Below, one piece after another: positions 4,591 through 42,225 of a DNA stretch of 43,266 bases. The notes under the pieces are model-generated. The model did no database searches and was not told the DNA's origin. It was given only the letters and a program-made list of their open reading frames with translations. Positions within the stretch are counted from its first letter, which is position 1, and each line of letters begins with the position of its first letter. A program made the translations under genes and the position numbers. Origin of the DNA: a virus; IMG/VR virus record IMGVR_UViG_3300049847_000569, positions 1-43,266 of that record, one strand, 5' to 3'.

Positions 4591-5211
4591 ATGGGTACAG
4601 ATATCCACGGCGTTTTTCAACGCAAGACAGACAAGGGTTGGGAAGATATCCCAAGTAAATGGAAACAGGAACGGCATTACTTTCTGTTTTCATTCTTAGC
4701 AGATGTACGGAATGGGTATGGCTTTGCGGGTGTGCCAACCTATGAACCAATTAATCCCATTTCGTCTCCGCGTGGCCTGCCAGAAGACTTCTCCATGGAC
4801 GGCGATGAACATCTAACCACCATGGAAGTGTTAGGGCGCCGTGCTAAATACGTAGAAGATAAGAACAAACCGACTCTCTGGATGGGAGACCACTCACATT
4901 CGTGGTTACTTAGCAGCGAAATCTTGACTGCGGCAGAAAAGATGAAAAACACCACTAGGACTGGAGTTATATCGCTTGAAGCCTTCAAGAAATGGGACCG
5001 CATTTCATGCCCGGCTGAATACAGTGGAGGCATAAGCGGACCAAACATTCATGTTGCGGCCTCACCACTAGCCATTAACAGCAAAACGAGTCATGTGCAA
5101 GTAACATGGGTCGAAAACGATAAAGACGACATTGCCTATTTCTTAAAAGAAGTCATCCGATTGCAGAAAGATCATGGGTTGATTCGCTTAGTCTTTGGGT
5201 TTGACTCATGA
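4591..5211 (+). CDS. Phage protein of the MGxDIH-type unknown family
   Basis: 206 residues from ATG 4591 with AGGAGA at 4577-4582. The N-terminal MGTDIHGVFQRK, the F-L-A-D-V-R-N block and PISSPRGLPEDFS are hallmarks of a family seen in many phages and bacteria whose function is unknown to me. DNA is clearly more AT-rich, with different codon choice from the neighbours, so it was probably acquired separately. The start Met-Gly followed by Asp-His may suggest a metal site, which is inference. Overlaps the nuclease gene by 4 nt. Confidence 0.7.
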   Translation: MGTDIHGVFQRKTDKGWEDIPSKWKQERHYFLFSFLADVRNGYGFAGVPTYEPINPISSPRGLPEDFSMDGDEHLTTMEVLGRRAKYVEDKNKPTLWMGDHSHSWLLSSEILTAAEKMKNTTRTGVISLEAFKKWDRISCPAEYSGGISGPNIHVAASPLAINSKTSHVQVTWVENDKDDIAYFLKEVIRLQKDHGLIRLVFGFDS

Positions 5212-6119
5212 CTGAATTCCCCTCCGTCTGGGATAACACCCTCCGCTCCGCCTTCGTGGCGTGTCCCCGGCGCTTTAACTGGGAGTACATGCGCCACTAC
5301 AAGCACCAAATCCCCTCCGTCCATCTTCACGCGGGGAGCGCATGGGCGAAAGCCCTCGAAGTCGCCCGAGAGGTGTATTATACCCAAAAACTCCCCGCCC
5401 TCGACGCGCAAGCCCTCGGCCTCCTCGCACTCGTCGAGGCGTATGGCGACTTCGAGCCTATCGCGAAGAGTAATAAAAGTCTCGACCGCATGATTGAGGC
5501 GTTCAAATACTATTTCCGCGCCTTTCCCCTCGAATCGGACCCCGTTCAACCCTACATCGGCGCCGACGGCAAGCCGATGATCGAATTCAACTTCGCCCTT
5601 CCCCTCGACCCCGATCTAACCCACCCCGAAACCGGCGAACCAATCCTCTACACCGGCCGCGCAGATATGATCGCCACCTACGCCGGCGCAGTGAGCATCT
5701 ATGATGATAAAACTACTCAATCTCTGGGCGCCTCTTGGGCTAATCAATGGGATCGACGCAGTCAATTCACTGGTTATGCATGGGCCGCTAAAGCCTACAA
5801 CATCCCAGTTTCGCAAGTTGTGGTCCGTGGCATTGCCATTCTCAAGACTGAGATTAACCATGCTCAGTGTATCTCAGTCCGGACTCCCCACCATATTCAA
5901 GAATGGCACACGCAAGTTGTTCGTGATATACGTCGAGCGATCCAGTGCTACAAAGAGGGGTACTGGGACGTAGACCTTTCGGATTCGTGCTCCTCCTACG
6001 GAGGGTGTCTTTTCAAGCAACCTTGTATGAGTTCCGACCCCGAGCCGTGGCTCTCCGGCGGAAACTACGCAATCCGAATCTGGAACCCCCTAACCCGCCA
6101 GGAGACTGAAAATGCATAA
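5208..6119 (+). CDS. Cas4-like PD-(D/E)XK nuclease with Fe-S cluster
   Basis: 303 residues. A RecB-type nuclease core is visible: G-R-A-D (D152), the D-x-K element IYDDKTT (D166, K168) and the Q-x3-Y helix motif (Q186, Y190). One Cys near the N-terminus (C19 in VACPRRF) and three near the C-terminus (C261, C267, C273) match the four-Cys Fe-S clamp of Cas4/AddB nucleases. Expected activity is metal-dependent DNA end resection in replication or recombination. It precedes an ATPase and SSB candidate, fitting a phage recombination module. The CRISPR role of Cas4 is not implied; no cas genes are present. Confidence 0.85.
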   Translation: MTEFPSVWDNTLRSAFVACPRRFNWEYMRHYKHQIPSVHLHAGSAWAKALEVAREVYYTQKLPALDAQALGLLALVEAYGDFEPIAKSNKSLDRMIEAFKYYFRAFPLESDPVQPYIGADGKPMIEFNFALPLDPDLTHPETGEPILYTGRADMIATYAGAVSIYDDKTTQSLGASWANQWDRRSQFTGYAWAAKAYNIPVSQVVVRGIAILKTEINHAQCISVRTPHHIQEWHTQVVRDIRRAIQCYKEGYWDVDLSDSCSSYGGCLFKQPCMSSDPEPWLSGGNYAIRIWNPLTRQETENA

Positions 6120-7365: not shown

Positions 7366-7587
7366 ATGAACCACTGCGAAACCTGCGCATATTTCAAACC
7401 CGACCTTGAAGATTGGCGTGTCCGTCTTAGTAACGGCATCCACGGCGGTCTCTGCAAAAGCCCATTCATGAAAGAGGAATACGACCACACCGAAAACAGC
7501 CTCGTCTATTCCTACTCAGAAGGCGGCTCCTTTTGGGTCGGCCCTAAGTTTGGCTGCGTAAACCACGAACCGAAAGAGACCAAATGA
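7366..7587 (+). CDS. Cys-rich mini-protein
   Basis: 73 residues, MNHCETCAYFKPD with a first Cys pair (C4, C7), then Cys near residue 30 (GGLCKSP) and another near 65 (FGCVNHEP). The four Cys probably bind one metal ion. Similar short proteins occur in many phage early operons without known role. GAGG precedes the start; it overlaps the ATPase gene by 4 nt. Confidence 0.6.
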   Translation: MNHCETCAYFKPDLEDWRVRLSNGIHGGLCKSPFMKEEYDHTENSLVYSYSEGGSFWVGPKFGCVNHEPKETK

Positions 7588-8435
7588 CCTCCTCCTACCC
7601 CGGCTTCAAAGTGCATATTATGGGGCCTACCGGCTCCGGCAAAACGCACTCTCTTGCCTCCCTTCACAAAACAGGGTTAGAGGTCTTCATTCTCTTCCTC
7701 GATCCCGGCCTCACAACATTGATAAAAGCCTTCTGTGATCCGCCGCCTGATGGATTAGGAATGCCCACACCCCCATCCAATTTCCACTGGCAATCCGTCC
7801 GCGTGTCCACTCCAAACTTCGCCAATCTCGAAGCCACCGCCAAACAAATCGGTCAGTTTGACCTTGCGGGTCTAGCCCGTATAAAAGACCTTAAGCGTAG
7901 TATTAACAACCCTCTTGAACGCATTTACGGGGCGCTTAACAATTTCATCGATGAGCGCACCGGAAAAGAATACGGCCCTGTTGTTGATTGGGGAACGGAT
8001 AAAGTTCTAGTTATTGACAATCTCTCAAGCCTGTCTCGGGGGATTATGCAGGCCGTAGTAGGAAGTGCGCCGCTCCGCGACAAGCCCCACTACGGTTTAG
8101 GGCAAGGACAACTAAGCAACACCATCCTCGGCCTAACTGAAGGCACCGGAACCCACTTTATTCTACTCTCTCATCCCGACAGAGAAATGGATGAAGTCAT
8201 GGGAGGAATTAAACTCTTTCCCTCGAACATCGGAAAAGCACTAAATTCAAATTTCAATCAACCCTTTGACGACGTCATCCTAGCCGCAAGGGAGACTGAT
8301 AAATTCTATTGGGACACGGCGTCTTCACAGGCCGATCTAAAAGCGCGCCATCTCCCGATATCGCCCAAACTCCCCGCCACTTTCGAGCCGATCTGGCGGA
8401 AGTGGGAGGCGAGAAAGGCCGCGGCGACAGCATGA
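7584..8435 (+). CDS. P-loop ATPase, RecA/Sak4-like
   Basis: 283 residues. Walker A GPTGSGKT at 14-21 and a Walker B strand VLVIDN at 141-146, followed by a second core strand FILLSHPDRE, fit the RecA-like fold of phage AAA_24/Sak4-type single-strand annealing ATPases. The C-terminus is a basic helix. Position between a Cas4-like nuclease and an SSB candidate supports a role in recombination-dependent replication or repair. A generic AAA ATPase of other function cannot be excluded. Confidence 0.75.
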   Translation: MTSSYPGFKVHIMGPTGSGKTHSLASLHKTGLEVFILFLDPGLTTLIKAFCDPPPDGLGMPTPPSNFHWQSVRVSTPNFANLEATAKQIGQFDLAGLARIKDLKRSINNPLERIYGALNNFIDERTGKEYGPVVDWGTDKVLVIDNLSSLSRGIMQAVVGSAPLRDKPHYGLGQGQLSNTILGLTEGTGTHFILLSHPDREMDEVMGGIKLFPSNIGKALNSNFNQPFDDVILAARETDKFYWDTASSQADLKARHLPISPKLPATFEPIWRKWEARKAAATA

Positions 8436-9857: not shown

Positions 9858-10161
9858 AACCGACGAGTCAAAACTCGCCCGTTTCGACTGGTACTCTTCC
9901 CAGTGGGCGTGGCACTATCGCCGGCGAAATAAGAGTCTCTGGCACACCCAACAAGCCCGGTGGTTTCGCCGGCAATGGCGCCGGATCCCGGGGCTTTTTG
10001 TCCTTATTGTCGGGCGAACAATCCGAAAGCACAGCGCTAAAATCGCCAACAGTATCACAATGAACAATACCCTCTTCGCGCGACTCAAGGAAAGAACAAA
10101 TGAGACCAACCGGACCAATTCCTGCCGAGGTTATGGTGATCGGGGAGGCTCCCGGCCGTGA
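9829..10161 (+). CDS. Hypothetical basic protein
   Basis: 110 residues from ATG 9829. Trp/Arg-rich (WAWHYRRRNKSLW...RWFRRQWRRIPGLFVLIVG) with one weak hydrophobic segment. Its first eight residues, MRPTGPIP, are identical to the first eight of the downstream polymerase, although the codons differ. It overlaps the polymerase gene by 62 nt. No family is recognised; it may be an insertion that duplicated the polymerase gene start. Confidence 0.5.
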   Translation: MRPTGPIPPETDESKLARFDWYSSQWAWHYRRRNKSLWHTQQARWFRRQWRRIPGLFVLIVGRTIRKHSAKIANSITMNNTLFARLKERTNETNRTNSCRGYGDRGGSRP

Positions 10162-12526
10162 AGAAGAACTCCAAGGCATCCCCTTCGTCGGCCCCTCTGG
10201 GGCACTTCTCAATAGTCTTCTGCAGAAAGCCGGCCTCTCGCGGGAAAGCGCCTTCGTTACTAACGTCGTCCGGGAACGTCCTCCGGGCAACGATATCTCG
10301 GCGTGGATATCTGACCGTAAGACTCCGCCCGGCCCGGAGTGGAAGCACATTTTCGGCCGGTGGTGTCATCCGAATGTCGCTCGTGGTGTGGATTCCCTCT
10401 ACGCCGAAATCGAAGAAGTCTCCCCGAAGATAATCATCGCCCTCGGAAACACGCCTCTCTGGGCGCTTTCGGGGAATGTCGGCATCATGAAATGGCGGGG
10501 CTCCCGCCTTTCCCCGCCTGGAGTGCAGTGCAATGTCCTCCCTACCATCCATCCTGCGGCCTGCCTCCGCCAGCGCGAGCTTACGCCGATACTCCTCATG
10601 GACCTCAAGCGCGCCCGGGCCATCTACGAGGGGACCCAGACTCCCCGGGTGTATAAGTTCCTCGCTCCGCCGTCGTTCGACGATGCGATGGGATATCTCG
10701 AAAATCTCCTGCGAAGAGCAACCGATAGTCGAGATTCCTTGGTACTTTCCGGAGACCTCGAAACCCGCTCCGGCCACATCGCCTGCTTCGGTATCGCCGA
10801 TTCAGCCAGCACCGCTATATGCATTCCCTTCCTTCGAGATTCTGCGGATTCCCTTTTCTACTGGACCGAAGAACAAGAAACAGTTCTAATTCGCAAGATT
10901 ATCCAACTCTTCCTCTCCCCCAACATAACCTGGATCGGCCAAAACTACCTCTACGACTGCCAATACTTCCACCGCTTTTGGGGCGCCGTGCCGGCCAAAA
11001 TCTGGGACACGATGATCGGCCACCATTCAATATACAGCAACCTCCGAAAAGGTCTCGACTTCCTCTCCTCGATGTACGCCCAGGATCACGTCTATTGGAA
11101 GGACGAAATCAAGAACTGGGACCCCGCGATTGGAGAGCAACAACTGTGGGCCTACAACTGCAAAGATTGTTGTATCACCTACGAAATCTGGGACAAAATC
11201 ATCGAGGAGCAAGCCTCTGAGGGAGTCTCCGAGCATTTCTATTTCCAACAATCTCTCTTCATGCCGGTCTTGAGGATGATGAACCGAGGAATCCGCCTCG
11301 ACACCGATCAACGCACCGTCCTCCGCCGCGACCTCACAAAACTCGGCATCGACCGCCAGGAAAAACTCGACTATATCGCCGGCCACCCCCTCAACCCCAA
11401 ATCTCCGGCGCAACTCCTCAAATTCTTCTACGAAGACCTCAAAATCCCCGGGATTCGGAACCTCGACACCGAAGCCCTAACCACAAACGCCGGCGCGATG
11501 TTAACCATTGCCACTCGCCACCCAATTCTCAAACCCCTCTGTCAACTCATCCTCGAACTCCGCTCTATCGGCGTCTTTATCTCCACCTTCATAAACGCCG
11601 ATTTGGATGTCGATGGAAGGATGCGCTGCTCTTTCGCCGTGGCGGGGACAAAAACCTTCCGGTTCTCCTCCTCCGAGAACGCCTTCAACTCAGGGATGAA
11701 TCTCCAAAACGTCCCAAAGAATACCTCTGGCCGTGCCCGCCTAAAAAGCGACGATCTTATTCTCCCCAATATCCGCAAACTCTTCATCCCTGACCCGGGA
11801 TACACCTTCTTCGACCTCGACCTCGACCGCGCGGATATGCAAGTCGTCGCGGCAGAGGCGGATGATAAACTCCTAAAAGAGATCCTCGCAAAAGGTATCG
11901 ACATCCACTGCATGTCCGCCGCCGAAATCTACGGCGTGAAAGGAATCCCCATCGATGAACTCGTCGAAACCCACCCCAACTACCGCGATCACCGAGCTAA
12001 AATTGGCGAAGGGAACCGTGATAAGACTAAAAACGGCGGCCACGCTACAGATTACGGCGTCCACGACCGGAAACTCGCAATTACTCTTGGAATCACCGTC
12101 GCGGAAGCCGCTCGTTTTCGCGCTCGATGGTTTGGGCTCTTTCCTGGTATTAAGAAATGGCATGAACGCGTCGAAACCGAGGTCCGGCTTAGAGGGTTCC
12201 TCCAAAACAAATTCGGCGCCCGTTTCTATCTCCAAGGCGACTTCGACCTCCCGGAATTCCTCGCCTGGACCCCAAGCAGCACCGTCGCCGGGGTCATTAA
12301 CCGCGCTCTTGTCCGAATCGATAATGCGCGCGAAAGCGGCGAAAGCAGCATCGAACTCCTCCTGCAAGTGCACGACTCCCTTGCCGGACAGTATCTTACA
12401 ACCCGCGCTGAGCATGAATTGCGCCTCCTGCGGGAAAAGGCTCAGATTACAATCCCCTACGACGACCCGCTCGTGATTCCGGTGGGGATTAAAACATCCG
12501 AGAAGTCTTGGGGAGATTGTAAGTGA
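10100..12526 (+). CDS. Uracil-DNA glycosylase / family A DNA polymerase fusion
   Basis: 808 residues, AAGGAAAG upstream of ATG. Residues 11-180 form a family 4-like UDG: GEAPG at 15-19 with the following E-G-x-P-F-V-G-P-S-G block, and HPA at 151-153. The N-terminal Cys pair of Fe-S family 4 enzymes is missing. Next comes a 3'-5' exonuclease (DLE 219-221, N282/D286, Y352/D356), then the polymerase: motif A around D574, motif B R640-K644-Y652-G653, motif C HDS 758-760. No 5' nuclease domain. It is the replicative polymerase with built-in uracil surveillance. Three normally conserved sites differ (see findings). Confidence 0.92.
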   Translation: MRPTGPIPAEVMVIGEAPGREEELQGIPFVGPSGALLNSLLQKAGLSRESAFVTNVVRERPPGNDISAWISDRKTPPGPEWKHIFGRWCHPNVARGVDSLYAEIEEVSPKIIIALGNTPLWALSGNVGIMKWRGSRLSPPGVQCNVLPTIHPAACLRQRELTPILLMDLKRARAIYEGTQTPRVYKFLAPPSFDDAMGYLENLLRRATDSRDSLVLSGDLETRSGHIACFGIADSASTAICIPFLRDSADSLFYWTEEQETVLIRKIIQLFLSPNITWIGQNYLYDCQYFHRFWGAVPAKIWDTMIGHHSIYSNLRKGLDFLSSMYAQDHVYWKDEIKNWDPAIGEQQLWAYNCKDCCITYEIWDKIIEEQASEGVSEHFYFQQSLFMPVLRMMNRGIRLDTDQRTVLRRDLTKLGIDRQEKLDYIAGHPLNPKSPAQLLKFFYEDLKIPGIRNLDTEALTTNAGAMLTIATRHPILKPLCQLILELRSIGVFISTFINADLDVDGRMRCSFAVAGTKTFRFSSSENAFNSGMNLQNVPKNTSGRARLKSDDLILPNIRKLFIPDPGYTFFDLDLDRADMQVVAAEADDKLLKEILAKGIDIHCMSAAEIYGVKGIPIDELVETHPNYRDHRAKIGEGNRDKTKNGGHATDYGVHDRKLAITLGITVAEAARFRARWFGLFPGIKKWHERVETEVRLRGFLQNKFGARFYLQGDFDLPEFLAWTPSSTVAGVINRALVRIDNARESGESSIELLLQVHDSLAGQYLTTRAEHELRLLREKAQITIPYDDPLVIPVGIKTSEKSWGDCK

Positions 12527-13719
12527 GCCAAAGAGAACTCCCCGATTGGCTCTCGGAATTCGTTCGAAATACGGAGTGGGGCGAGCCGCCGCAGAGGGTG
12601 TATTTCTGGGTCGGCGTCGCCGCCATCGCCGCCGCGTTGCAGCGCCGGGTATGGATCGATATGGGCACCTTCCAATGGCTCCCCAACCTCTACACCGTCA
12701 TCGTCGGCCCGCCGGGGATCATCAACAAATCCACAACCTGCGACCTCGGCTTTGCGCAACTCCTATACCACGTCAAAAATATCCACTTCGGCGCGAGTAC
12801 GTTAACGTGGCAGTCCCTCTACGACGCCTTTACTGAGGTCCACGAAACCATCCAACTCGATGACAGGACCCAAATCAACCAAAATGCCCTCGTCATCGTC
12901 TCGCGGGAATTCGGAAACACCATCAACCCCACCGACACCGAACTAATCGACCAACTCGTCGCGTGTTGGGACGGGATGCGGATGGCGAAGCGCACCCGTA
13001 TGGACGGGGAGATTGTCATCGAAACCCCCTCCCTCAACATAATCGGCTGCACGACGCCAAGTTGGATTTCAGAGAACGTCCCCCAATATCTCATCGGCGG
13101 CGGTTTGACCTCGCGGATGCTCTTCGTCTACGCCGATAAGAAAGAGAGATACGTCGCCTACCCGAAAAGGGTCATGCCGCTCGACTACCGCGAACGCCAA
13201 GCGCGCCTTCTCCGCGACTTAACCCGCATCGCCCAGTTAAAAGGGGAATTCCTCCTCACCGAAGAGGCGTTGGATTGGGGCACGGCGTGGTACGAAGACT
13301 TCCACAAAAACCAAGCGCAGAAGCTCGATAAGACCCTAATCGGCGGCTACATCGCGCGGAAGCAAACCCTCGTGCATAAGGTCGCCATGTGCCTCTCCGC
13401 CTCAAGCGGGGATAGCCTCACAATAACCCTCACCGACCTCCAACGCGCCGAGGCGTACATAACCAAACTCGAAGAACACATGCCCCTCGTCTACTCCAAA
13501 ATCGGGATGAGTAAAGAAAGCTCCGCCGCCGAAACCATCATCGCGTTTATCGAACGCAACGCCGACAAAGAAGGGTGGGTGCCGTGGACCGTGATTTATC
13601 GGTATATGCACAAAGCCTTCCCCAACCCCGAACACCTGGAGGATATCGTCCGCGGCCTCCTCGAATCGGGGCAGGTCAAAATCAACAAATCCACAAACAG
13701 CTTGAGGTTGAATAAATGA
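12523..13719 (+). CDS. DUF3987-like primase-associated helicase/ATPase
   Basis: 398 residues, overlapping the polymerase gene by 4 nt. The P-loop region VGPPGIINKSTT (G62-S70) departs from the canonical GxxxxGKS spacing, as in some phage DUF3987 proteins. A Walker B-like strand ALVIVSREFG and a later R-rich helix follow, and the C-terminal 80 residues look like a winged helix (VPWTVIYRYMHKAF...VRGLLESGQVKI). Likely replicative helicase or helicase-primase component acting with the polymerase. No separate DnaB or primase gene is visible. Confidence 0.7.
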   Translation: MSQRELPDWLSEFVRNTEWGEPPQRVYFWVGVAAIAAALQRRVWIDMGTFQWLPNLYTVIVGPPGIINKSTTCDLGFAQLLYHVKNIHFGASTLTWQSLYDAFTEVHETIQLDDRTQINQNALVIVSREFGNTINPTDTELIDQLVACWDGMRMAKRTRMDGEIVIETPSLNIIGCTTPSWISENVPQYLIGGGLTSRMLFVYADKKERYVAYPKRVMPLDYRERQARLLRDLTRIAQLKGEFLLTEEALDWGTAWYEDFHKNQAQKLDKTLIGGYIARKQTLVHKVAMCLSASSGDSLTITLTDLQRAEAYITKLEEHMPLVYSKIGMSKESSAAETIIAFIERNADKEGWVPWTVIYRYMHKAFPNPEHLEDIVRGLLESGQVKINKSTNSLRLNK

Positions 13720-31515: not shown

Positions 31516-33804
31516 CTATTTCGACACAACCGACTTAAAGCCGGTTGGGGTTTTGATGACCTCTCTCGGTGCGTTCGCGGATTCAGTCATCTTGTCCATG
31601 GCGGCCTGAAGCGCGGCGAGGGCCTGCGTCACCCCTTGCATGAGGGGGGCGGTCTGCGCCGCCGCTTGTTGTTGACTCTTCTGGGCCACTTTCGCGCCGG
31701 TTGCGGCGGAAGTTAACTCCATCTTCTGCTTTGTGAAAGTGGCTTCATTTTGCGCCTGCTTCGCCTGTTCCGAGGCGGCCTTCGCCTGATCTTGGGCCGT
31801 CATAATGGCCTTCTGCGCATCAAGCTCGGCACGGACGACCCTAACCTCGGCGTCGAATTCCTTCTTCGCCGTTTCGAGGTTTCGCTGCTCGTCTTGGATA
31901 GCGGTGAGTTGATCTTTGAGCTTGGATTGGGTTTGCTCAAGCTGGGCTTGTTGCTGTTTAAGGTCTTGGTCTTTCTTTTCCTGCTCGGGGGTGGGGCCAG
32001 TCTGCGCCGGCGGGGGCTGCTGGACGGCCATAATCGAGTCCACGATAGCGAGACCGAATTTGAACCTCTGGCAAACGGCGACCAAAATCGACTTCGCGGC
32101 GGCAAGGCCCGTCGGCCCGAGTTGGACGAGAGGCGCCAACCCCGCCATGAGTTGTCCCATCGCGTTCATAAACTCACCGACTTCTTGCTTATCGGTGGCG
32201 GTGTCCAAATCTACGGTGGAGTTGGATTGGACATTGATTGTGTAAGTGCGGTTCGCGTCGGAAGCGATCTGCTTCACGACGGATTCGATGGAGGGTTTTG
32301 AAGCGGTAGCTTGGGCTTGTTGGAGTTGTTTTAGGCCCTCGGGCGGCGGAGGAACGCCTTGTGCTTGCATTTGCGAGCCGAGCATCATAAGGTGCTGGAC
32401 GGTCGCGGCGGCGGCGGCCTTCTCCTGCTCCGTGGGGAGGCCCATCTGGATCATCGCATTCCACTGCGCGGGAGGAACCCTCTTCGCGCCGCAATCCAGC
32501 GCGAGGCGATACAGGTCCCTCACATAATCCGCAACGGCTTTCTGCATATCTCTTAAGCGGATGGTCCCCCATTTGTTTTTGAGGTCCTGTGCAGTAGCCG
32601 TCTCACTCGCGACAGAAGAGCCGCGAAGAATGTCCGAAATGCCGGTAAGTTCATAAATGACCGCCTTTATCTGTTGCCGGGCTTGGTACAGTTCTGTCGC
32701 GACCTGCACGAGTTTTTCGATGGGCAGCATCCAAATCTGCCGCTCGAAGCCCCCATTTTGCGCCAACATCATCGATTCTTTGGCGGGGAAGAGTTTGTTC
32801 TCAGAATCGTCGGAGGAGAGGATGTGCTCCATTTCCGTGCCGAGGAGGAGATTATACGCGCCCCTCACCTTAATCGCGGAGAGGACCTTATTCAACCGCA
32901 CGGTGACGCGGTTTAGCTCTTCGGCTTGATTGCGATAGTATTGATAGAGGGGGATCGGAACGATCTTCCCGGGTTTCCGGGTTAGGAGCAGCGGGCCGGG
33001 GGTGGGGAAGAAGCCCTCCAACCCAAGAACGTCATCCTCGGATTTTAATTCGAGTTCTTTCCAATCCTCACAGAGGAAATAGACCTTCTTCTCGGCCTTA
33101 ACCCAGAGTTCATAGACAATCGTGCCCTTTGGAGAGGCGGATTTTCCCTCTCCCTCCTCGCCCGGGCCGGCGACGTAGTTATCTTCGTCCTCGCCGGGAA
33201 TTTGGAATTGGTCGAAAAGCTCCTGCTTCGTCAGTTCGTGGCGGAACGCAACCCAGGGGACTTTCGCCCATTTACGGGCCGGCCCCCAGATTAGGCCCTT
33301 GTAGTGGCCCGACTCGAAACAAAGGGGGATGGGGCGGTTATCGTAGTAGCGGAGGCGGATGAAGCCCATCCCCGGCACGAGGGACGAGAGGGTCGTCTCC
33401 GACATCGCATCGTCGAGGGATTCTTCGCCGGGATTCGAGGGGTCGGAGAGGACGGTTAGGAACCGTTCCGCCGCAATCGGCACCGGGCCGAGGTCAATCT
33501 CTTTGAAACGGCTCCGAACGTCCGGCTTCGGAGTTGCAGAGTACAGGGACGGCTTTATAACCTCAGTATTGGAATAGAGAATGTTGTACGGCTCAAGCTG
33601 CTCCGTATCTTTTTCGGAGGAGTAGATCGTAACCGCATTTTCCGCGGCCTTCCACCACCCACTCTCGAAGAATTTCTCACGGGCTTGTATCTTATCCAGC
33701 CACTCCCGCGCCTCGGAGAGGCGTTCTTTCGCGCCGCCCGAGGCGTCCTCTGCACGAGTGGTCTCCGCGCTGCCTTCGGCAGGGTTTACATAATTATCAC
33801 TCAC
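31516..33804 (-). CDS. Portal protein, P22-like
   Basis: 762 residues with a GTG start in a GTGA overlap with the large terminase. The N-terminal and central parts hold typical portal helices and beta segments (NILYSNTEVIKPSLYSATPKPDVRSRF; YQYYRNQAEELNRVTVRLNKVL; the ELTGISDILRG loop). From about residue 560 a very long Gln/Lys/Glu/Ala coiled region follows (QEKKDQDLKQQQAQLEQTQSKLKDQL), analogous to the P22 portal barrel. Forms the dodecameric DNA channel. Confidence 0.9.
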   Translation of the reverse strand: MSDNYVNPAEGSAETTRAEDASGGAKERLSEAREWLDKIQAREKFFESGWWKAAENAVTIYSSEKDTEQLEPYNILYSNTEVIKPSLYSATPKPDVRSRFKEIDLGPVPIAAERFLTVLSDPSNPGEESLDDAMSETTLSSLVPGMGFIRLRYYDNRPIPLCFESGHYKGLIWGPARKWAKVPWVAFRHELTKQELFDQFQIPGEDEDNYVAGPGEEGEGKSASPKGTIVYELWVKAEKKVYFLCEDWKELELKSEDDVLGLEGFFPTPGPLLLTRKPGKIVPIPLYQYYRNQAEELNRVTVRLNKVLSAIKVRGAYNLLLGTEMEHILSSDDSENKLFPAKESMMLAQNGGFERQIWMLPIEKLVQVATELYQARQQIKAVIYELTGISDILRGSSVASETATAQDLKNKWGTIRLRDMQKAVADYVRDLYRLALDCGAKRVPPAQWNAMIQMGLPTEQEKAAAAATVQHLMMLGSQMQAQGVPPPPEGLKQLQQAQATASKPSIESVVKQIASDANRTYTINVQSNSTVDLDTATDKQEVGEFMNAMGQLMAGLAPLVQLGPTGLAAAKSILVAVCQRFKFGLAIVDSIMAVQQPPPAQTGPTPEQEKKDQDLKQQQAQLEQTQSKLKDQLTAIQDEQRNLETAKKEFDAEVRVVRAELDAQKAIMTAQDQAKAASEQAKQAQNEATFTKQKMELTSAATGAKVAQKSQQQAAAQTAPLMQGVTQALAALQAAMDKMTESANAPREVIKTPTGFKSVVSK

Positions 33805-35252
33805 AGGCGGGCATTCCTAGAAAGGGAGCGGGCACTCTGCCTCTTGATAAGCTCGTCGATGGTGGGGTAAGAGCGCGCCTTCGTCCAGTCGATTGGGGTA
33901 ATTGGCTTTTTAAGGTCCTCAATCGAGGGGCGCGACATTACAGCGTAGCGGGTTTCGTCCGCGGCGTGGTCTTCGCCGTCGGAGTCGAGGTCTTCGGGGT
34001 TTTTCTCATCATGCTGGAGATAGGGGAGGGTGCGGATTGTGTGCTCGCACGATTCGTGGAAGTAGATTAGCGCGGGGGAGATAGCGAGCCTCTTTCGGAG
34101 TTGTTCCCAACCCGGCTGGCGCGCATTATCCCCCCGAAACCAAGAGCACTTCTCGATAATCATCATTTCCGCGATCGAGGGGCCGCCGTTGGTGATGAAG
34201 ATGGACGGATCAGACACGCCGTAGGAGAGGCGTTTGATGTCCTCCTCGCGCTTAATCACGCCCTGGGCGACTTGCGCGGCGTCCATTTTCAGCCCTTTAT
34301 TCGGCCGCCCATTCCATCCATACCATTCACGGAATTTGATGAGGGCGCCTCGGGGGAAGTTTGTTCCGCCATCCGCGACCGCATACCACCCGACGCAGAA
34401 GGGGGCGGAAGAGCCCCAGTCCAGCGCGCGGAACCTTGTCCAGTGTTCAGGGAGATCAATCTTCCCACCGAAAACGTGTCGATCCTCGGAAAACTCGGAA
34501 AAGAAGGTCCCATCGACGCCATTCCAATCTCCTTCGAGCCAGGCTTTTACGAGTTGGGGAGAACCCGTCTCCCGGAGACGCATGATATACGTCGGGTCGT
34601 TTTGAAGGAGTTTGGGGTTGTCCTTCAGTTTGGAGGGGATGAAGACACGATCGATTTCCGCCGTTACGGTTTCGCCGTCCGGGAGTTCGATGTCTTCGGT
34701 CTCTTTCACGACGAGATAGCCGGTTGGGCAGGGATCGACGTAGCGTTCTTTGACCCAATGGTGGCCGGGGCCGCCAGGGTTGCCGGTCATGCGGATGCCG
34801 CAAGGAACGCCCTGCGCTGAGCGGAGAGTCCCTTTGAGCTTCATTATCGGGTCAGGGAAGGGGAAGTTGGTAACTTCCTCAACGTAGATTCGGGTGTATT
34901 CGTGGCCCTGATATTCCTCCGCGTCTTCGTCGCGTTCGAGATACGCGAATTTCAAGGTCGCGCCGTTGGGCATGATGAGTTCTTTTTTCTGCTCATGCCA
35001 CTTCGCGCCAATTTTCGCGGTGTAGCGGCGGAACCGCTTGATAACGTCGGTGAGTTGGGTTAGTTTCCGGCGGATGAAGAGGCCGGAGGCGTGCTCGCCG
35101 TAGGCGTTGGAATGGGCGAACCAGTCGCCGATGCTGCCTTCTGTCTTCCCCCCTCCCCGAGCGCCGCCGAAGAAGACCTCGAACACTGGGCACGAAACGA
35201 GGTCCGTCTGCGGGCCCGGTTGAGCGGCCCAAAGAATCGTAGGCTCAATCAC
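33801..35252 (-). CDS. terL: Terminase large subunit
   Basis: 483 residues, GTG start with AGGA upstream. ATPase motifs: GGARGGGKT (29-37) as Walker A, RIYVEE (121-126) as Walker B, and TGNPGG (156-161) as coupling motif. The nuclease domain begins with ALDWGSSAPF (D278). Pumps DNA into the prohead and cuts it. It overlaps the portal gene by 4 nt and the short upstream gene by 8 nt. Confidence 0.93.
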   Translation of the reverse strand: MIEPTILWAAQPGPQTDLVSCPVFEVFFGGARGGGKTEGSIGDWFAHSNAYGEHASGLFIRRKLTQLTDVIKRFRRYTAKIGAKWHEQKKELIMPNGATLKFAYLERDEDAEEYQGHEYTRIYVEEVTNFPFPDPIMKLKGTLRSAQGVPCGIRMTGNPGGPGHHWVKERYVDPCPTGYLVVKETEDIELPDGETVTAEIDRVFIPSKLKDNPKLLQNDPTYIMRLRETGSPQLVKAWLEGDWNGVDGTFFSEFSEDRHVFGGKIDLPEHWTRFRALDWGSSAPFCVGWYAVADGGTNFPRGALIKFREWYGWNGRPNKGLKMDAAQVAQGVIKREEDIKRLSYGVSDPSIFITNGGPSIAEMMIIEKCSWFRGDNARQPGWEQLRKRLAISPALIYFHESCEHTIRTLPYLQHDEKNPEDLDSDGEDHAADETRYAVMSRPSIEDLKKPITPIDWTKARSYPTIDELIKRQSARSLSRNARL

Positions 35253-35977: not shown

Positions 35978-36291
35978 TTCCCGATGGCTTTCCAGAGTTG
36001 GGCGATATCCCCCGTTTTCGCGGCGAGGAAGAAGATAACCGTCAAAACCACCGCCTTCGCGGAGAAGAGAATAAATCGGCCGAAGGAAAGTTGGTGTTTT
36101 ACGTCGATTATGGCATTTTCCATTTCTTTTAGTCGGCCTTCCTCGGCGTGGATGTGGAGTTCGAGGCGTTTCGCGAGGAGGTCAATCTTCTCATTCGAGT
36201 GGCGAATGGCGGTGGTTATTTCGCCAAGCTCCCGGGCTATTTGCTCGCCGTTCATAAGGGGTACCTCGTAGGTGGGGAAGACAGCGAGCAT
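35974..36291 (-). CDS. Coiled-coil membrane protein of lysis cluster
   Basis: 105 residues from ATG 36291 (TAATG overlap with the holin gene); ATG 36255 with GAGG upstream is a shorter alternative. Residues 15-70 are an amphipathic helix (GEITTAIRHSNEKIDLLAKRLELHIHAEEGRLKEMENAI), then one hydrophobic segment near 82-98. An inverted arrangement compared with Rz-type spanins (TM at the C-terminus). Exact lysis role unknown. Confidence 0.55.
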   Translation of the reverse strand: MLAVFPTYEVPLMNGEQIARELGEITTAIRHSNEKIDLLAKRLELHIHAEEGRLKEMENAIIDVKHQLSFGRFILFSAKAVVLTVIFFLAAKTGDIAQLWKAIGK

Positions 36292-36728
36292 TATTTGGTG
36301 AGACCGCGGGACTTCTCGAAGGAGCGGAAGCCGGAATAGCCGACATAGCCTACGCCGAAGAGAGTCCAGAGGGAATCGGGGACCGCCGCGAGCCATGCTT
36401 GCATGCCGGCCGCGACTTGGACCGCTATTTCGGGCCGGAAGGCCGATAAAACCCCCATCGGGAGGGCGGCGAGGATCATGATATAGATGACGTACATGAA
36501 ACTCGGCCGCGCACGGGAGGTCCAGGGGTCGGAACTTTGCGCCTCCGCGAGGATGGCGGACATGGAGACTTTTAACTCCTCCATCGCGCCCTCTTGTTGG
36601 AGTTGGGCGAGGGCGAGGGTTGCCGCGGCGCGCTCTTTCTCCTGCGCGATCTTGTCGGGGAAGATTTTATCGATAACCTTCCCGCCGAAATCGAAGATTG
36701 CGCCGAGGCCGGCGATGTCAAGAGACAT
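36291..36728 (-). CDS. Holin, 3TM family
   Basis: 145 residues. A basic/amphipathic N-terminal half is followed by D-P-W-T-S-R-A-R-P-S-F-M-Y-V-I-Y, the hallmark of the phage 3TM holin family, and hydrophobic segments near 78-95, 100-115 and 118-135. Permeabilises the inner membrane to release endolysin. Adjacent to the GH108 endolysin. Confidence 0.8.
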   Translation of the reverse strand: MSLDIAGLGAIFDFGGKVIDKIFPDKIAQEKERAAATLALAQLQQEGAMEELKVSMSAILAEAQSSDPWTSRARPSFMYVIYIMILAALPMGVLSAFRPEIAVQVAAGMQAWLAAVPDSLWTLFGVGYVGYSGFRSFEKSRGLTK

Positions 36729-36897
36729 TTTTGCTCTCCTCTTCGGCTTTCTTCTCGATAAGCTCTTTGGATTGGAGGGTTTTATCGTTGGCTTGGGAGA
36801 AAATCTTCTGGATGAGGTCGTTTGAACGGCGCCACGGAAGTTCGGCGAGGCCGTTTATGAGGGTATCAACCTCGGCGGGTTCAAGGAGGAGGTACAT
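36718..36897 (-). CDS. Short conserved lysis-cluster protein
   Basis: 59 residues from ATG 36897 (MYLLLEPAEVDTLINGLAEL), then a Lys/Glu-rich tail. The longer frame upstream overlaps the endolysin gene and is Pro/Ser-rich noise. This short protein is commonly coded next to phage endolysins without known role. Overlaps endolysin by 17 nt and holin by 11 nt. Confidence 0.6.
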   Translation of the reverse strand: MYLLLEPAEVDTLINGLAELPWRRSNDLIQKIFSQANDKTLQSKELIEKKAEEESKNVS

Positions 36898-37396
36898 CGC
36901 AGTCCTTTTGGAGGTATTCGAGGTTAGAGCAAACGCGCTCGATCCACCCCCGGCCAAAAGCGGGCCAAGTGGGGAGTTTGGTGTAGAAACGAGTCCTCTC
37001 GGTGAGGAAGGAAAGGCCGATAAAAAGGGGGCCGGGGGCTCCATTCGCAGCGGCGAGGGTTTTCGGGCCGATTATGCCGTCATCTTCGACGGAGAGGGCG
37101 TGTTGGAGCCACTTTATCGCCTGAATCGGGCCGTGGTTGACGGCGGCGTCGAAAACCTGGAAAGCGAGGGGAGGGGGAAGGCCGTCGCAGCGGGGCGTTT
37201 CCCAATATTCGTTCTTGTATATCTCGACGGCGGTCTCTCGGGGGAGGAAGCGCATTTCGCCTTTATAGCCCCATTTCGCGGCGGTGCGGGAGGTTATGCC
37301 CCAATTCGTCGCACCGCCGGGGTCGAGGGGGTTGTTGACGTATTTTCCCTCATGGCCGAGGACGCGGGAAATGAAGAGGGGGAAGTTATCGGCCAT
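36881..37396 (-). CDS. Endolysin, GH108 muramidase
   Basis: 171 residues. The catalytic motif HEGKYVNNPLDPGGATNWGI with E16 identifies glycoside hydrolase family 108, followed by a Leu/Lys-rich linker and a PG-binding-3-type C-terminus (VEDDGIIGPKTLAAAN). It cleaves the beta-1,4 bond between MurNAc and GlcNAc. No signal or SAR segment is seen at the N-terminus, so release depends on the holin. Confidence 0.9.
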   Translation of the reverse strand: MADNFPLFISRVLGHEGKYVNNPLDPGGATNWGITSRTAAKWGYKGEMRFLPRETAVEIYKNEYWETPRCDGLPPPLAFQVFDAAVNHGPIQAIKWLQHALSVEDDGIIGPKTLAAANGAPGPLFIGLSFLTERTRFYTKLPTWPAFGRGWIERVCSNLEYLQKDCDVPPP

Positions 37397-37721: not shown

Positions 37722-38207
37722 TTATTCCCCTAAACCCCGGGGTGAGACGTCGATAACTTCGGGAACCCCCCGGCCCTTCGATGCGGCGAGCCATTGGGCG
37801 GAGGTTTGTGCGACGGGGGGAAGTTGGACGATGTAGTTATTCGTCTGCGCGAAGGGATTGATGGGGGCGGGGGCGCCCTCAACGCCGAGTTTCGCGATGG
37901 CGATTAACTCGTTCGTCTTCATCGGCGCGTTAGCGTCCATCCGCTCGATTAGCTTATCGAGGGAGCGTTTCGCGGCGGCCTCGACGCGCTCTTTGACGGA
38001 GGCGCGGAGGATAGGGTCGGAAATCTCGGCTTTTCGCTCCGCAAGGCGGTTTTTGAAGGCGTCGGTATTGACCATGATCGAAACCCACGACTCGGAGTAG
38101 CCGCAAAGGCGCGCGAGGTCGCCTTGGGAGATAAGGGGGTTCGCCACGATCGCCTCGATGAAGGCGTCATGCCAATAATGGACGTGAGAAAGGCCGGGCT
38201 TGTCCAT
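37722..38207 (-). CDS. Terminase small subunit (probable)
   Basis: 161 residues from ATG 38207. Residues 10-50 contain a helix-turn-helix-like segment (ISQGDLARLCGYSESWVSIMVNTDAFKNRL), followed by an oligomerisation-type helix and a Pro-rich C-terminus. Promoter-proximal first gene of the packaging/structural operon. Would recognise the packaging start and load the large terminase. A TTG farther upstream (38246) is unlikely. Separation from terL by the lysis genes is unusual but known in podoviruses. Confidence 0.7.
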   Translation of the reverse strand: MDKPGLSHVHYWHDAFIEAIVANPLISQGDLARLCGYSESWVSIMVNTDAFKNRLAERKAEISDPILRASVKERVEAAAKRSLDKLIERMDANAPMKTNELIAIAKLGVEGAPAPINPFAQTNNYIVQLPPVAQTSAQWLAASKGRGVPEVIDVSPRGLGE

Positions 38208-38414
38208 AGACCTGCGGATTTTCGGCCAGCGGCGCGGGGTTGTCAACCAAAGAAGGGCAATTTGGGGCCGTATTCACTGTCGGTGTACAGCCCGGCTAAA
38301 CCCCCCTCACCCGCCCCCCGGCCTGCGGGGAGATACCCCCCTCGCTGCGCTCGGGAGAATGCGGGGAATATGATAGTACACGCTCACAGACTTTCACCCC
38401 GCCGCGCGCGCAGT

Positions 38415-38679
38415 GGATGCGCAGTAGTAGCCCGTTCTCCCGGAATGGGGGGATTTCGTATCAGGCTGAGTTGATGTTGTGAGAAAGAGACATAACTTCC
38501 CTGTGTTGCTTTTCTGCCACCTCTTGTATGTGTGTGTGTACTTACTAATTTTTTTTTAAATATGTAACAACACATACAGACAGCAGCGTCTCTTTTTCAC
38601 AACACTGTAACAGAGCCGTGGCGCCAAAGTACCCCCCACACGGGAGAACGGTCACCTACTGGGGAACCACTGCGCATCC
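38415..38679. repeat. Large nested inverted duplication
   Basis: Four ordered blocks are repeated in inverted order about a centre near 38545: GGATGCGCAGT (38415-38425 with 38669-38679), CCGTTCTCCCG (38432-38442 with 38641-38651), TGGGGGG (38446-38452 with 38632-38638) and TGTTGTGAGAAAGAGAC (38475-38491 with 38588-38604, one mismatch). AGTAG/CTACT also matches. An inner TGTATGTGT/ACACATACA pair (38525-38533, 38570-38578) frames the core. Spacing differs by small gaps, so it is a diverged inverted duplication rather than a chance palindrome. Could be an origin, packaging or regulatory site. Confidence 0.85.
38540..38562. other. AT-rich core of the inverted duplication
   Basis: A 23-base A/T-rich stretch with nine T followed by AAATAT, the most AT-rich tract in a GC-rich genome, at the centre of symmetry of the large inverted duplication and just after a GT-rich run. 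Compatible with a DNA-unwinding element or a strong promoter spacer. No experimental evidence. Confidence 0.5.
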
Positions 38680-38691
38680 CTTGCGGCAAAC

Positions 38692-38710
38692 ATTGTCACC
38701 TTATGACAAT
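38692..38710. promoter_or_regulatory. Operator-like dyad
   Basis: ATTGTCA-N5-TGACAAT, a perfect 7-bp inverted repeat, centred about 106 bp upstream of the predicted sigma-54 transcription start. This is a typical distance for an activator binding site. A repressor operator is the alternative. Confidence 0.5.
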
Positions 38711-38725
38711 TTCCGTCCCTTCCAT

Positions 38726-38742
38726 GTGACGTTATTTGTCAC
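38726..38742. promoter_or_regulatory. Second operator-like dyad
   Basis: GTGAC-N7-GTCAC, a 5-bp perfect inverted repeat centred about 73 bp upstream of the predicted sigma-54 start. Its half-site order (TGAC...GTCA) is the reverse of the dyad at 38692, so the two may not bind the same protein. Confidence 0.4.
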
Positions 38743-38779
38743 TCCCCGGGAAAAATCAAGGGGTTAAGCGTGTTTCGCC

Positions 38780-38797
38780 CTGGCACGGGGTTTGCAT
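38780..38797 (+). promoter_or_regulatory. Sigma-54 (-24/-12) promoter
   Basis: CTGGCACG-N4-TTGCAT exactly matches the RpoN consensus YTGGCACG-N4-TTGCW, with GG and GC elements 12 bp apart. Predicted start near 38807, leaving a 35-nt leader with AAGGA before ATG 38842. It would make the AAA+ operon dependent on sigma-54 and an enhancer-binding activator. No such activator (GAFTGA-type ATPase) is coded in the window, so the host's would be needed. Confidence 0.7.
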
Positions 38798-38841
38798 GTT
38801 ATAGGTTCTCCCCGAAACCACCTCTCGAAAGGATCCATGCT

Positions 38842-39027
38842 ATGACTATCACTATCGCTATGCAACGCACCTACGATCATCAACATACACAGGCACCGTG
38901 GCTCCTTACCCTTTATACAGGGTTGGGCACGCTTCGGGAGTGGGGCTGCGTCGGGCCCGACTTTCCGCAAGCTCGTGCCGTAATGGACGATTACGGCAAT
39001 CTCGTGATTGTAAGTCTGTGGAAGTAG
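38842..39027 (+). CDS. Hypothetical protein, first gene of AAA+ operon
   Basis: 61 residues from ATG 38842 with AAGGA at 38828-38832. Mixed composition with many aromatic residues (WLLTLYTGLGTLREWGCVGPDF). It lies just downstream of the sigma-54 promoter. An ATG at 38837 would stop after two codons. No family known to me. Confidence 0.6.
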   Translation: MTITIAMQRTYDHQHTQAPWLLTLYTGLGTLREWGCVGPDFPQARAVMDDYGNLVIVSLWK

Positions 39028-39109: not shown

Positions 39110-39394
39110 ATGACAACCCGCTATCAAACCGCGCTTGCATTCGCCCGCCGCGAGCCGGCGCAATGCCACAACGCGCGCACCCAGGGCACGAGCTACTGGC
39201 TACACGGCCACCTTATCGCACTGCGCATCGCACCCACAATCGTGCGGTTTAACTGGTGCGGCTGGCACACGCCAACCACAGCCGCGCATATGAACGACAT
39301 CCTGCGCGCGCTCGGGGTTAATATGCGTGTCTCCTACGCGCAAGCGCGGGAGGGCAAAGCCGATGAAGTTTTCGACATCACGGTGCCCCAATGA
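39110..39394 (+). CDS. Hypothetical protein
   Basis: 94 residues, AGGAG upstream. Ala/Arg/Trp-rich (SYWLHGHLIALRIAPTIVRFNWCGWHTPTTAAHMNDILRALG). It looks like a compact alpha/beta protein. ATGA overlap couples it to the AAA+ gene, so it may be an accessory subunit, though this is inference. Confidence 0.6.
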   Translation: MTTRYQTALAFARREPAQCHNARTQGTSYWLHGHLIALRIAPTIVRFNWCGWHTPTTAAHMNDILRALGVNMRVSYAQAREGKADEVFDITVPQ

Positions 39395-40641
39395 ACGCAC
39401 CCTATCACGACATCGCGGCCGCCCGCGCGGCGCTGGAAGCCGCAAACGTTGTCCACCTCGTACCCGCCGCGCGAATGGCGGGTTTCAGGTTCCGCATCGG
39501 CCTGACAAAGGCGGGAATCATCGAAGGGCTAGCACGCTACCCCGCGATGATGGCTGCGGCCGTTATGGCGCTTCAGCGCTTGCAAGCGGGGGATTCTCCC
39601 CCCGCGCCACCCCGCGCGCTGGCCGCAGACTGGCTCGACGACGATAACGCGCCGGCCCCTCCCCCCGCGCCCATTCTCACGCCCCCAACACCACAACCCG
39701 AACCGAGGGGCGACGTTGACCTTTCCGAGTACGCGAAACGCACATGGACGCGCGAGGAAATTCTCGTGGCCGAGGGGCGCTCCACCCGGCGCATGGATGC
39801 AGTGCAGGCTATGGTCGCCATTGCGCAACAGGATATTAAGGCGCTCCAAGAATCGCGCCCGATTGTCATCGCGCTGCCCGAACGACCCGAGCCGATCCCC
39901 GTTCACGGGGTCGCCCATCCCCAATTCCCGGACCTACTCCTCACCCTCCGCGCCGGCTTGCATTGCATGCTAGTCGGCCCAGCCGGCTCAGGAAAAACCT
40001 ACTCCGCCGAACAAGCCGCAATCATCCTCGCGAAGAAGTTTTTCGCCCAAGGCGCCGTCACCTACGCGCATGAGTTACTAGGCTACATCGACGCCCATTC
40101 GCGCTACGTGCGGACCCAGTTCCGTGACGCATTCGAGCATGGGGGTATCATCCTACTCGATGAATTCGACGCGAGTAGCCCCGAGGCCGCGCTGGTGGTC
40201 AATGCGGGGCTTGCGAACGGTTTCTGCGCCTTCCCCGACGGGCTAGTGCAAAAACACCCCGAGTTCGTCTGCATCGTCGGCGCAAACACGGACGGTTCCG
40301 GCGCGACTATCAGCTACTCCGGCCGGGCGCGACTCGACGGCGCGTTTCTGGACCGGTTCATCATGTTCCGGTGGAATGTTGACCCACGCATCGAGGCACA
40401 GCTATCCGCCGGGAATGGGGAATGGCTTGAACTAGTCCGCGCCGTTCGCGCGTTCGCGCTCAAGCGGGACATCCTCGACGTGGTTGCAACCCCTCGCGCC
40501 GTCAAATTCGGGGCGGCCCTGCTCCAGCAGGGCATGCCGCGCGCTGCGGTTCTCGAACGCACCCTAAAGCGCGGCGCACTCGTTGAAGCATGGCCCGAAG
40601 TCGAACGCTTGCCCATCGTCGCTAACTTTCTGAGGGGCTAA
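39391..40641 (+). CDS. MoxR/CbbQ/CobS-type AAA+ ATPase
   Basis: 416 residues. An N-terminal helical region (1-65) and a Pro-rich linker (70-106) precede a AAA+ core: Walker A GPAGSGKT (196-203), Walker B ILLDEFD (254-260), sensor 1 GANT (297-300) and a candidate arginine finger in DRF (R322). MoxR-type proteins act as chaperones that remodel or activate partner proteins, often together with a VWA-domain partner. No VWA domain is coded next door. Codon use is different from the structural operon, with more GCG and CGC. Confidence 0.85.
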   Translation: MNAPYHDIAAARAALEAANVVHLVPAARMAGFRFRIGLTKAGIIEGLARYPAMMAAAVMALQRLQAGDSPPAPPRALAADWLDDDNAPAPPPAPILTPPTPQPEPRGDVDLSEYAKRTWTREEILVAEGRSTRRMDAVQAMVAIAQQDIKALQESRPIVIALPERPEPIPVHGVAHPQFPDLLLTLRAGLHCMLVGPAGSGKTYSAEQAAIILAKKFFAQGAVTYAHELLGYIDAHSRYVRTQFRDAFEHGGIILLDEFDASSPEAALVVNAGLANGFCAFPDGLVQKHPEFVCIVGANTDGSGATISYSGRARLDGAFLDRFIMFRWNVDPRIEAQLSAGNGEWLELVRAVRAFALKRDILDVVATPRAVKFGAALLQQGMPRAAVLERTLKRGALVEAWPEVERLPIVANFLRG

Positions 40642-40642
40642 C

Positions 40643-41458
40643 ATGCTTTTCTCCCCCGACGTAATGCAAGCCTACCGGCGCGAAACCATCAATACCGGCA
40701 AGGGCGCGCTCCCTATGTTTGTCTGGCAGGGTTCCTATTCCGCATGGCTCGAACACGCCCGGGCCATGCATGCCGACTCGCGGCGCTATCGGGGTCTACT
40801 CGCGGAGCGCTGTGATGAGGGATGGGCCGGCATGCCCGGGCAGGATGTCGCAGCCCTGCTATCTACCGGCATCATCGACGCCGCGCTGCGGGACTTCGAA
40901 GCCGCGCAGGCAAAGCTACTCAACGACAATCTCCTCCCCGGCTCGATGCAGCCCGCAGTCGCGGGCGGAGCGTGGATTGTGCCCCTCGTGCTCGCTAACA
41001 ACCCCATGCCCGCCCGCATCCGCACGCGCTCGAAACTCCCCCCGCGCTCCCTCGACCTGTGCACAAACGTGTCATCGCACATCAACCCCGCCGACGTAAC
41101 CGCAAGCATGGCCCGCATCGCGAAAGCTGCTTGGCTTTATATCCTCGCGGGTGGCGCCGTCACCATTACGGCACACTACATCCACAAATTTAGCAAGCCC
41201 TGCGATGGGCAGTGGGGGGTGTTGCATAGTATCAAGGTGCCAATCACGAATTGCGCGGCGCTCGCCAGTGCATGCTCGGTGCAGCACTATCGGGGGATGG
41301 ACATAATTGCGGCACAGTGTCTGTCGGGCGACCCGCATGATGGGCTGCCGCTGGTCAAGTGGAAGCGGCCGGGGCTGCTCCATGTCACGGGCAGGCTCGA
41401 AGATGATGCCAAGGCGCGAGCCGCGCTGCGCATCGAGGATGCCCCCCACGCACCATAG
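40643..41458 (+). CDS. Unrecognised partner of AAA+ ATPase
   Basis: 271 residues starting one base after the ATPase stop. N-terminal half: aromatic/charged helices (SYSAWLEHARAMHADSRRYRGLLAERCDEGWAGM). C-terminal half: alternating strands and helices (RSLDLCTNVSSHINPADVTASMARIAKAAWLYILAGGAVTIT), somewhat like the fold of VWA-type partners, but I see no MIDAS D-x-S-x-S. The spacing implies a functional pair with the ATPase. May resemble the DUF7192-type phage proteins; unconfirmed. Confidence 0.6.
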   Translation: MLFSPDVMQAYRRETINTGKGALPMFVWQGSYSAWLEHARAMHADSRRYRGLLAERCDEGWAGMPGQDVAALLSTGIIDAALRDFEAAQAKLLNDNLLPGSMQPAVAGGAWIVPLVLANNPMPARIRTRSKLPPRSLDLCTNVSSHINPADVTASMARIAKAAWLYILAGGAVTITAHYIHKFSKPCDGQWGVLHSIKVPITNCAALASACSVQHYRGMDIIAAQCLSGDPHDGLPLVKWKRPGLLHVTGRLEDDAKARAALRIEDAPHAP

Positions 41459-42197: not shown

Positions 42198-42225
42198 TTG
42201 ACATCCCGCGCCCCGGGCTTATACT
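42198..42225 (+). promoter_or_regulatory. Sigma-70 promoter
   Basis: TTGACA (42198-42203), 16-bp spacer, TATACT (42220-42225). The -35 is perfect and the -10 has five of six bases. Predicted start near 42232, giving a leader of about 19 nt to ATG 42251 with GGAG inside it. Would drive the last two genes independently of the sigma-54 promoter. Confidence 0.7.

Follow-up and report, generated by a model that had tools for sequence, protein, structure and literature searches.

Genome organization of the phage

The window analysed here is the whole of IMG/VR record IMGVR_UViG_3300049847_000569, from an uncultivated virus (positions 1 to 43,266; 43,266 bases, 57% GC). The structural genes are located on the − strand, from ~38.2 kb down to ~15 kb, and the replication genes on the + strand (Table 1). 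The two gene directions are parted by a divergent region (38208–38841), at the + strand end of which lies a −24/−12 site of the sigma-54 type. The HTH-like gene on the other side of this region was used as the anchor of the homologous control region in relatives. No tRNA genes were found in the window, and no RNA family (Rfam) was found at the site. Genome-borne relatives of the terminase, considered as a guide to the host, are only distant (at most 54% identical) and belong mostly to alphaproteobacterial records and MAGs. The DNA polymerase A carries an N-terminal domain of the uracil-DNA-glycosylase superfamily (residues 4–160, E 2.3e-24).

Table 1. Genes and sequence elements of the window
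Feature	Position	Strand	Remarks
Exonuclease	5208-6119	+	
Sak4-like	7584-8435	+	
DNA polymerase A	10100-12526	+	
Primase	12523-13719	+	
Portal	31516-33804	-	
Terminase	33801-35252	-	
Holin	36291-36728	-	
Endolysin	36881-37396	-	
Divergent gene before large terminase, HTH-like, probably small terminase	37722-38207	-	Weak HTH matches
Candidate enhancer (UAS), putative function	38692-38742	+	TGTCAC boxes; alignment with near relatives
TGTCAC box	38694-38699	+	Within dyad ATTGTCA-N5-TGACAAT (38692-38710)
TGTGAC	38725-38730	+	
TGTCAC box	38737-38742	+	
Sigma-54-type -24/-12 element, TGGCACG-GGGT-TTGCA	38781-38796	+	Exact match; conserved in homologous regions; recovered de novo without the window
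First operon gene, 61 aa	38842-39027	+	Function not assigned; ATG 45 bp after -24/-12 element
94-aa gene	39110-39394	+	Weak match to phrog_554 (E 0.0012)
AAA+ ATPase, 416 aa, CobS/MoxR-like	39391-40641	+	Pfam AAA E 1.5e-8; AAA_5 E 1.4e-7; phrog_249 'porphyrin biosynthesis' E 2.6e-40
271-aa gene	40643-41458	+	Beside the AAA+ gene also in relatives L002, L003 and L022

Several other elements are present in the divergent region. A large imperfect inverted repeat (38408–38675), with 49-nt outer arms (38408–38456 and 38627–38675, 76% complementary) and 17-nt inner arms (38475–38491 and 38588–38604, 94%), surrounds an AT-rich tract and is a possible replication origin. Positions 38540–38570 read TTACTAATTTTTTTTTAAATATGTAACA, and in this same region a T[AT]ACAAT-T(8-10) element is common to the related loci L002, L003, L006, L022, L010 and L105. 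Positions 38294–38305 read GGCTAAACCCCC, and in many relatives a GGCTAAAC-C-rich element is found again toward the late-gene side of the divergent region. The divergent regions of L003 (7936–8867), L022 and L108 contain many DnaA-box-like TTATCCACA/TGTGGATAA sequences, none of which is obvious in that of the window.

An exact −24/−12 element in front of the AAA+ operon

The sequence CTGGCACGGGGTTTGCAT (38780–38797, +) includes TGGCACGGGGTTTGCA (38781–38796), a perfect TGGCACG-N4-TTGCW, corresponding to the sigma-54 consensus TGGCACG-N4-TTGC (PMC3224663). The GG (38782–38783) and GC (38794–38795) have exactly the 10-bp spacing within the motif that a sigma-54 promoter requires, and the element has both the preferred pyrimidine before it and the preferred purine after CG. 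The initial annotation had described a match to the RpoN consensus at every conserved base, improbable by chance in 43 kb, and both statements are borne out. The element is the single exact match to TGGCAC-N5-TTGCW in the window, all other sites with the GG/GC invariants having at least two mismatches, and a first-order Markov model gives an expectation of 0.0088 perfect matches on both strands of the 43 kb, against the one found, and of 0.00006 on the early strand of the 595-bp divergent region. The window shows no excess of near-matches with up to two mismatches (12 versus 15 expected), so the within-window case stands on this single site.

Taking the C of GC as −12, the predicted transcription start is at ~38807, the same position that had been proposed before. 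The first good start codon, the ATG at 38842, is preceded by a Shine-Dalgarno-like AGGA. No sigma-70-like site scoring at least 9/12 was found on the + strand between 38641 and 38842. An extended −10-like TGTTATAGG (38798–38806) was considered as a sigma-70 promoter for the operon and rejected, as it has no usable −35. Elsewhere, sigma-70-like sites are found at 42198 (TTGACA-16-TATACT), for later + strand genes, and on the − strand at 38246 (TTGACA-17-GAAAAT).

The AAA+ protein was rejected as its own sigma-54 activator, since it is devoid of PF00158 (Sigma54_activat) and has no GAFTGA-like loop; a GAFTGA-like string is absent from every frame of the window. No PF00158 activator is encoded in the 26 phage records tested, and a phage-encoded sigma-54 was likewise discarded, as no sigma-54 DNA-binding domain occurs in 20 records, several of the records in both sets being fragments. 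From these results we infer that the activator would be provided by the host.

Conservation in related phages

Relatives were collected by a terminase search (23 loci), a terminase profile (80 more), an AAA+ profile (51 loci) and a profile of the HTH-like anchor (80 loci). The AAA+ gene alone returned no close relatives in direct DNA or protein searches, and the terminase and the HTH-like gene were used as anchors in its place. The nearest relatives are L002, L003, L105 and L239, with terminases 77% (L002) and 72% (L003) identical to that of the window, and AAA+ proteins 57% (L002 and L239) and 56% (L003) identical. The control region was defined as up to 1300 bp upstream of the anchor gene, in the early orientation, and the main set comprised 73 non-redundant homologous regions, from which the window and the loci fetched by pattern were excluded.

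On the early strand of these 73 regions, six have a site with no mismatches, 16 with at most one and 27 with at most two, versus means of 0.01, 0.30 and 4.84 for permuted motifs, a null that keeps the base composition and uses the same sequences; none of the 3000 permutations reached any of the observed counts, which are to be read bearing in mind that the phages are related to one another and the regions thus not fully independent. The corresponding late-strand counts are 0, 6 and 13. An initial set of 24 regions, from which the window was also left out, gave four perfect sites, six with at most one mismatch and 10 with at most two (permuted-motif means 0.003, 0.11 and 1.56). The match in the window is thereby confirmed to be clearly beyond chance. 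No site with up to two mismatches is present in 46 of the 73 regions, so the motif is frequent, and not universal, in the lineage. Its loss in close relatives, which the initial annotation regarded as evidence against its proposal, is not what we observe, as the motif is kept there, mostly with 0–2 mismatches (L006 has three).

Examples outside the window include TGGCACGGGGATTGCT (L003), TGGCACGGATGTTGCA (L011), TGGCACGAAGGTTGCA (L021), TGGCACGCTCCTTGCA (L239), TGGCACGGCTTTTGCT (L249), TGGCACGCGGGTTGCA (L299) and TGGCACGGGGCTTGCT (L108). Among the relatives, the N4 spacer and the flanks diverged while the motif was kept. In the 27 best sites (up to two mismatches) the most frequent changes from the consensus are C6 to T (seven) and T1 to A (five), and three mismatches are at the GG/GC positions. 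A pyrimidine precedes the motif in 20 of 26 cases and a purine follows the CG in 17 of 26, preferences that agree with YTGGCACGrNNNTTGCW. De novo Gibbs sampling of ten relatives, with no consensus given, the window excluded and homopolymer runs masked, returned the motif; in all ten a site was known beforehand, so this result shows the form of the motif, and its frequency comes from the 73-region count. When all 23 regions were searched de novo, other conserved elements ranked first. A scan of all viral contigs with TGGCAYGN4TTGCTACGCG gave matches of which those listed were mostly in unrelated contigs, and these were kept out of the statistics. The presence of the motif does not clearly track the absence of sigma-70-like sites (6/17 versus 20/46). 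Taken together, the comparison with relatives strongly supports a putative sigma-54-type site.

In L120 (1454–1575) and L126, two phages whose kinship with the window lies chiefly in the AAA+ gene, two −24/−12-like sites are found on the same strand in an intergenic position.

Architecture of the putative promoter in the nearest relatives

In the clade of the window, the distance between the end of the site and the first start codon is nearly constant: 45 bp in the window, 50 bp in L002, 36 bp in L105 and 48–51 bp in L239, measured from the copy nearest the gene. In more distant relatives this distance is mostly 150–400 bp. The group formed by L003, L022 and L108 shares another upstream block and has the site at a greater distance from the main gene, and in L003, L011 and L013, as read by eye, sigma-70-like hexamers lie closer to the gene than the site, which is farther upstream.

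Upstream of the site, TGTCAC boxes are conserved in the near clade, with eight copies of TGTCAC/GTGACA in the four 130-bp stretches of the window, L002, L105 and L239, versus 0.125 expected in these same records. Together with the −24/−12 site, the boxes resemble the enhancer layout of activator-dependent sigma-54 promoters and may represent an upstream activating sequence, but they could equally be operators of another regulator. The usual position of such sequences is 70–150 bp upstream (PMC3844500), and the nearest TGTCAC box is closer than this.

Arrays of sites and alternative explanations

Seven relatives (L239, L261, L286, L288, L292, L040 and L089) have arrays of three to seven copies of TGGCAYG-N4-TTGCW. 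Three or more copies are present in eight of the 73 regions, compared with 0.07 expected. The seven copies of L239 are on the early strand, and two of these are separated by just 15 bp; in L261, L286, L288 and L292 the copies are on mixed strands; and in the more distantly related L089, six copies stand in tandem on the terminase strand with a spacing of ~26 bp. Some arrays contain convergent site pairs. With copies 15–26 bp apart and convergent pairs, not every copy can be a working promoter. Decoys, polymerase parked in closed complexes, or binding sites for a different protein are conceivable roles, and the arrays complicate an interpretation of the motif as a promoter only.

The explanation that best competes with a promoter, which we nevertheless consider rather unlikely, is that a different DNA-binding protein, of the phage or of the host, recognises the motif, which would be an iteron or origin operator that resembles the sigma-54 consensus by coincidence. 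Such a protein would account for the location of the site in a divergent region that looks origin-like in several relatives, with a conserved AT tract and, in L003, L022 and L108, DnaA-box-like sequences, as well as for the excess of multi-copy arrays, with copies on both strands and in convergent pairs. It would have to be highly conserved, however, as the motif is kept in phages whose anchor protein is only 30–50% identical, and what is kept comprises 12 positions of the sigma-54 consensus together with the Y/R preferences on its flanks. Moreover, within the clade of the window the spacing between the start codon and the copy nearest the gene is constant, and no candidate binding protein was identified.

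We regard as very unlikely that the sites bind Esigma54 mainly as decoys, or to hold closed complexes in the way of sigma-70 RNA polymerase, instead of acting as promoters. In E. coli, sigma-54 is reported to repress when bound at a sigma-70 promoter or close to one (PMC4551910), sigma-70-like hexamers occur close to the site in some relatives, and the arrays and convergent pairs would fit such a role. In contrast, the window has one copy, 45 bp from the first gene and with no recognisable sigma-70 promoter to block, and one copy titrates little unless the copy number of the phage is high.

Finally, a chance resemblance has a negligible probability and is refuted as far as the comparison allows, for in spite of the unenriched near-matches in the window and the many motif types open to choice when the site was first noticed, the conservation in relatives versus permuted motifs speaks against it.

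Proposed function of the site

As a rule, phage early genes are transcribed by the housekeeping sigma-70 polymerase once the DNA enters the cell. Sigma-54 is generally tied to nitrogen, motility or stress, and it is on this general basis that the initial annotation proposed a link of the operon to such host states. In our view, the site at 38781–38796 is likely to be a genuine binding site, most probably a host sigma-54 (RpoN) promoter for the first early-strand operon. This reading is based on the exact motif, its early-facing conservation with diverged spacer and flanks, the short and constant distance to the start codon in the window, L002, L105 and L239, the upstream TGTCAC boxes kept in these phages, and the absence of any sigma-70 promoter that could be recognised for the operon. 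The original suggestion of a sigma-54 promoter before an AAA+ operon is thus upheld in part: conservation, position and the enhancer-like boxes support it well, but relatives with other early genes carry the motif too, so it is not tied to the AAA+ gene itself, and the arrays are a complication.

Assuming that RpoN is present in the host, Esigma54 would bind the site and wait as a closed complex, to be opened by a host AAA+ enhancer-binding protein acting at the TGTCAC boxes. If this activator were switched on by the infection or by the stress or nutrient state of the host, the operon with the 61-aa, 94-aa, AAA+ and 271-aa genes would be conditional on a host signal, which suggests a phage family that waits for host stress or nutrient signals. 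Infection would then depend on a host activator, and the nutrient, envelope-stress or motility state would decide whether the phage proceeds. A bolder extension, which we hold to be doubtful, is that the whole lineage routes its early operon via host sigma-54 while the arrays of some members soak up or park Esigma54, so that these phages would both sense and disturb the sigma-54 network of the host. As an arrangement of sigma-54 sites, the arrays in relatives would be of a new kind.

Comparison with known systems

The glnA and nif promoters are bacterial sigma-54 (RpoN) −24/−12 promoters with an upstream enhancer. The phage site is like bacterial sigma-54 promoters in its match to the consensus (PMC3224663), its orientation and its short distance to the gene, and also in the repeated or dyad boxes ~40–90 bp upstream, partly within the UAS range (PMC3844500). 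Unlike them, it belongs to a phage control region before early genes, has no activator nearby, and has counterparts in some relatives that form arrays. Bacteriophage sp. ctMlz233 (MW202489.1, Manatee Spring), with a 40-kb circular genome, a terminase 56% identical to that of the window and the same bidirectional layout, has a divergent region without a clear −24/−12 site, unlike the window.

Sigma-54 promoters are already known; of one that is conserved in the early control region of phages of a lineage we found no description in the literature searched, such an absence being weak evidence. Links between RpoN and phage-derived DNA have been reported, namely predicted sigma-54 sites upstream of genes related to phages in Xylella (PMC3224663) and, in Salmonella, Fels-2 genes that respond to rpoN (PMC3844500). 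Those cases likewise involve RpoN-linked sites or effects, but they are scattered, low-scoring or indirect, whereas the present site is kept in one and the same control region of a phage lineage. Another phage interaction with the sigma-54 holoenzyme is that of the Xp10 protein P7, an inhibitor of sigma-54 RNA polymerase (PMC5053324); in contrast to P7, which inhibits the holoenzyme, the present phage appears to use it.
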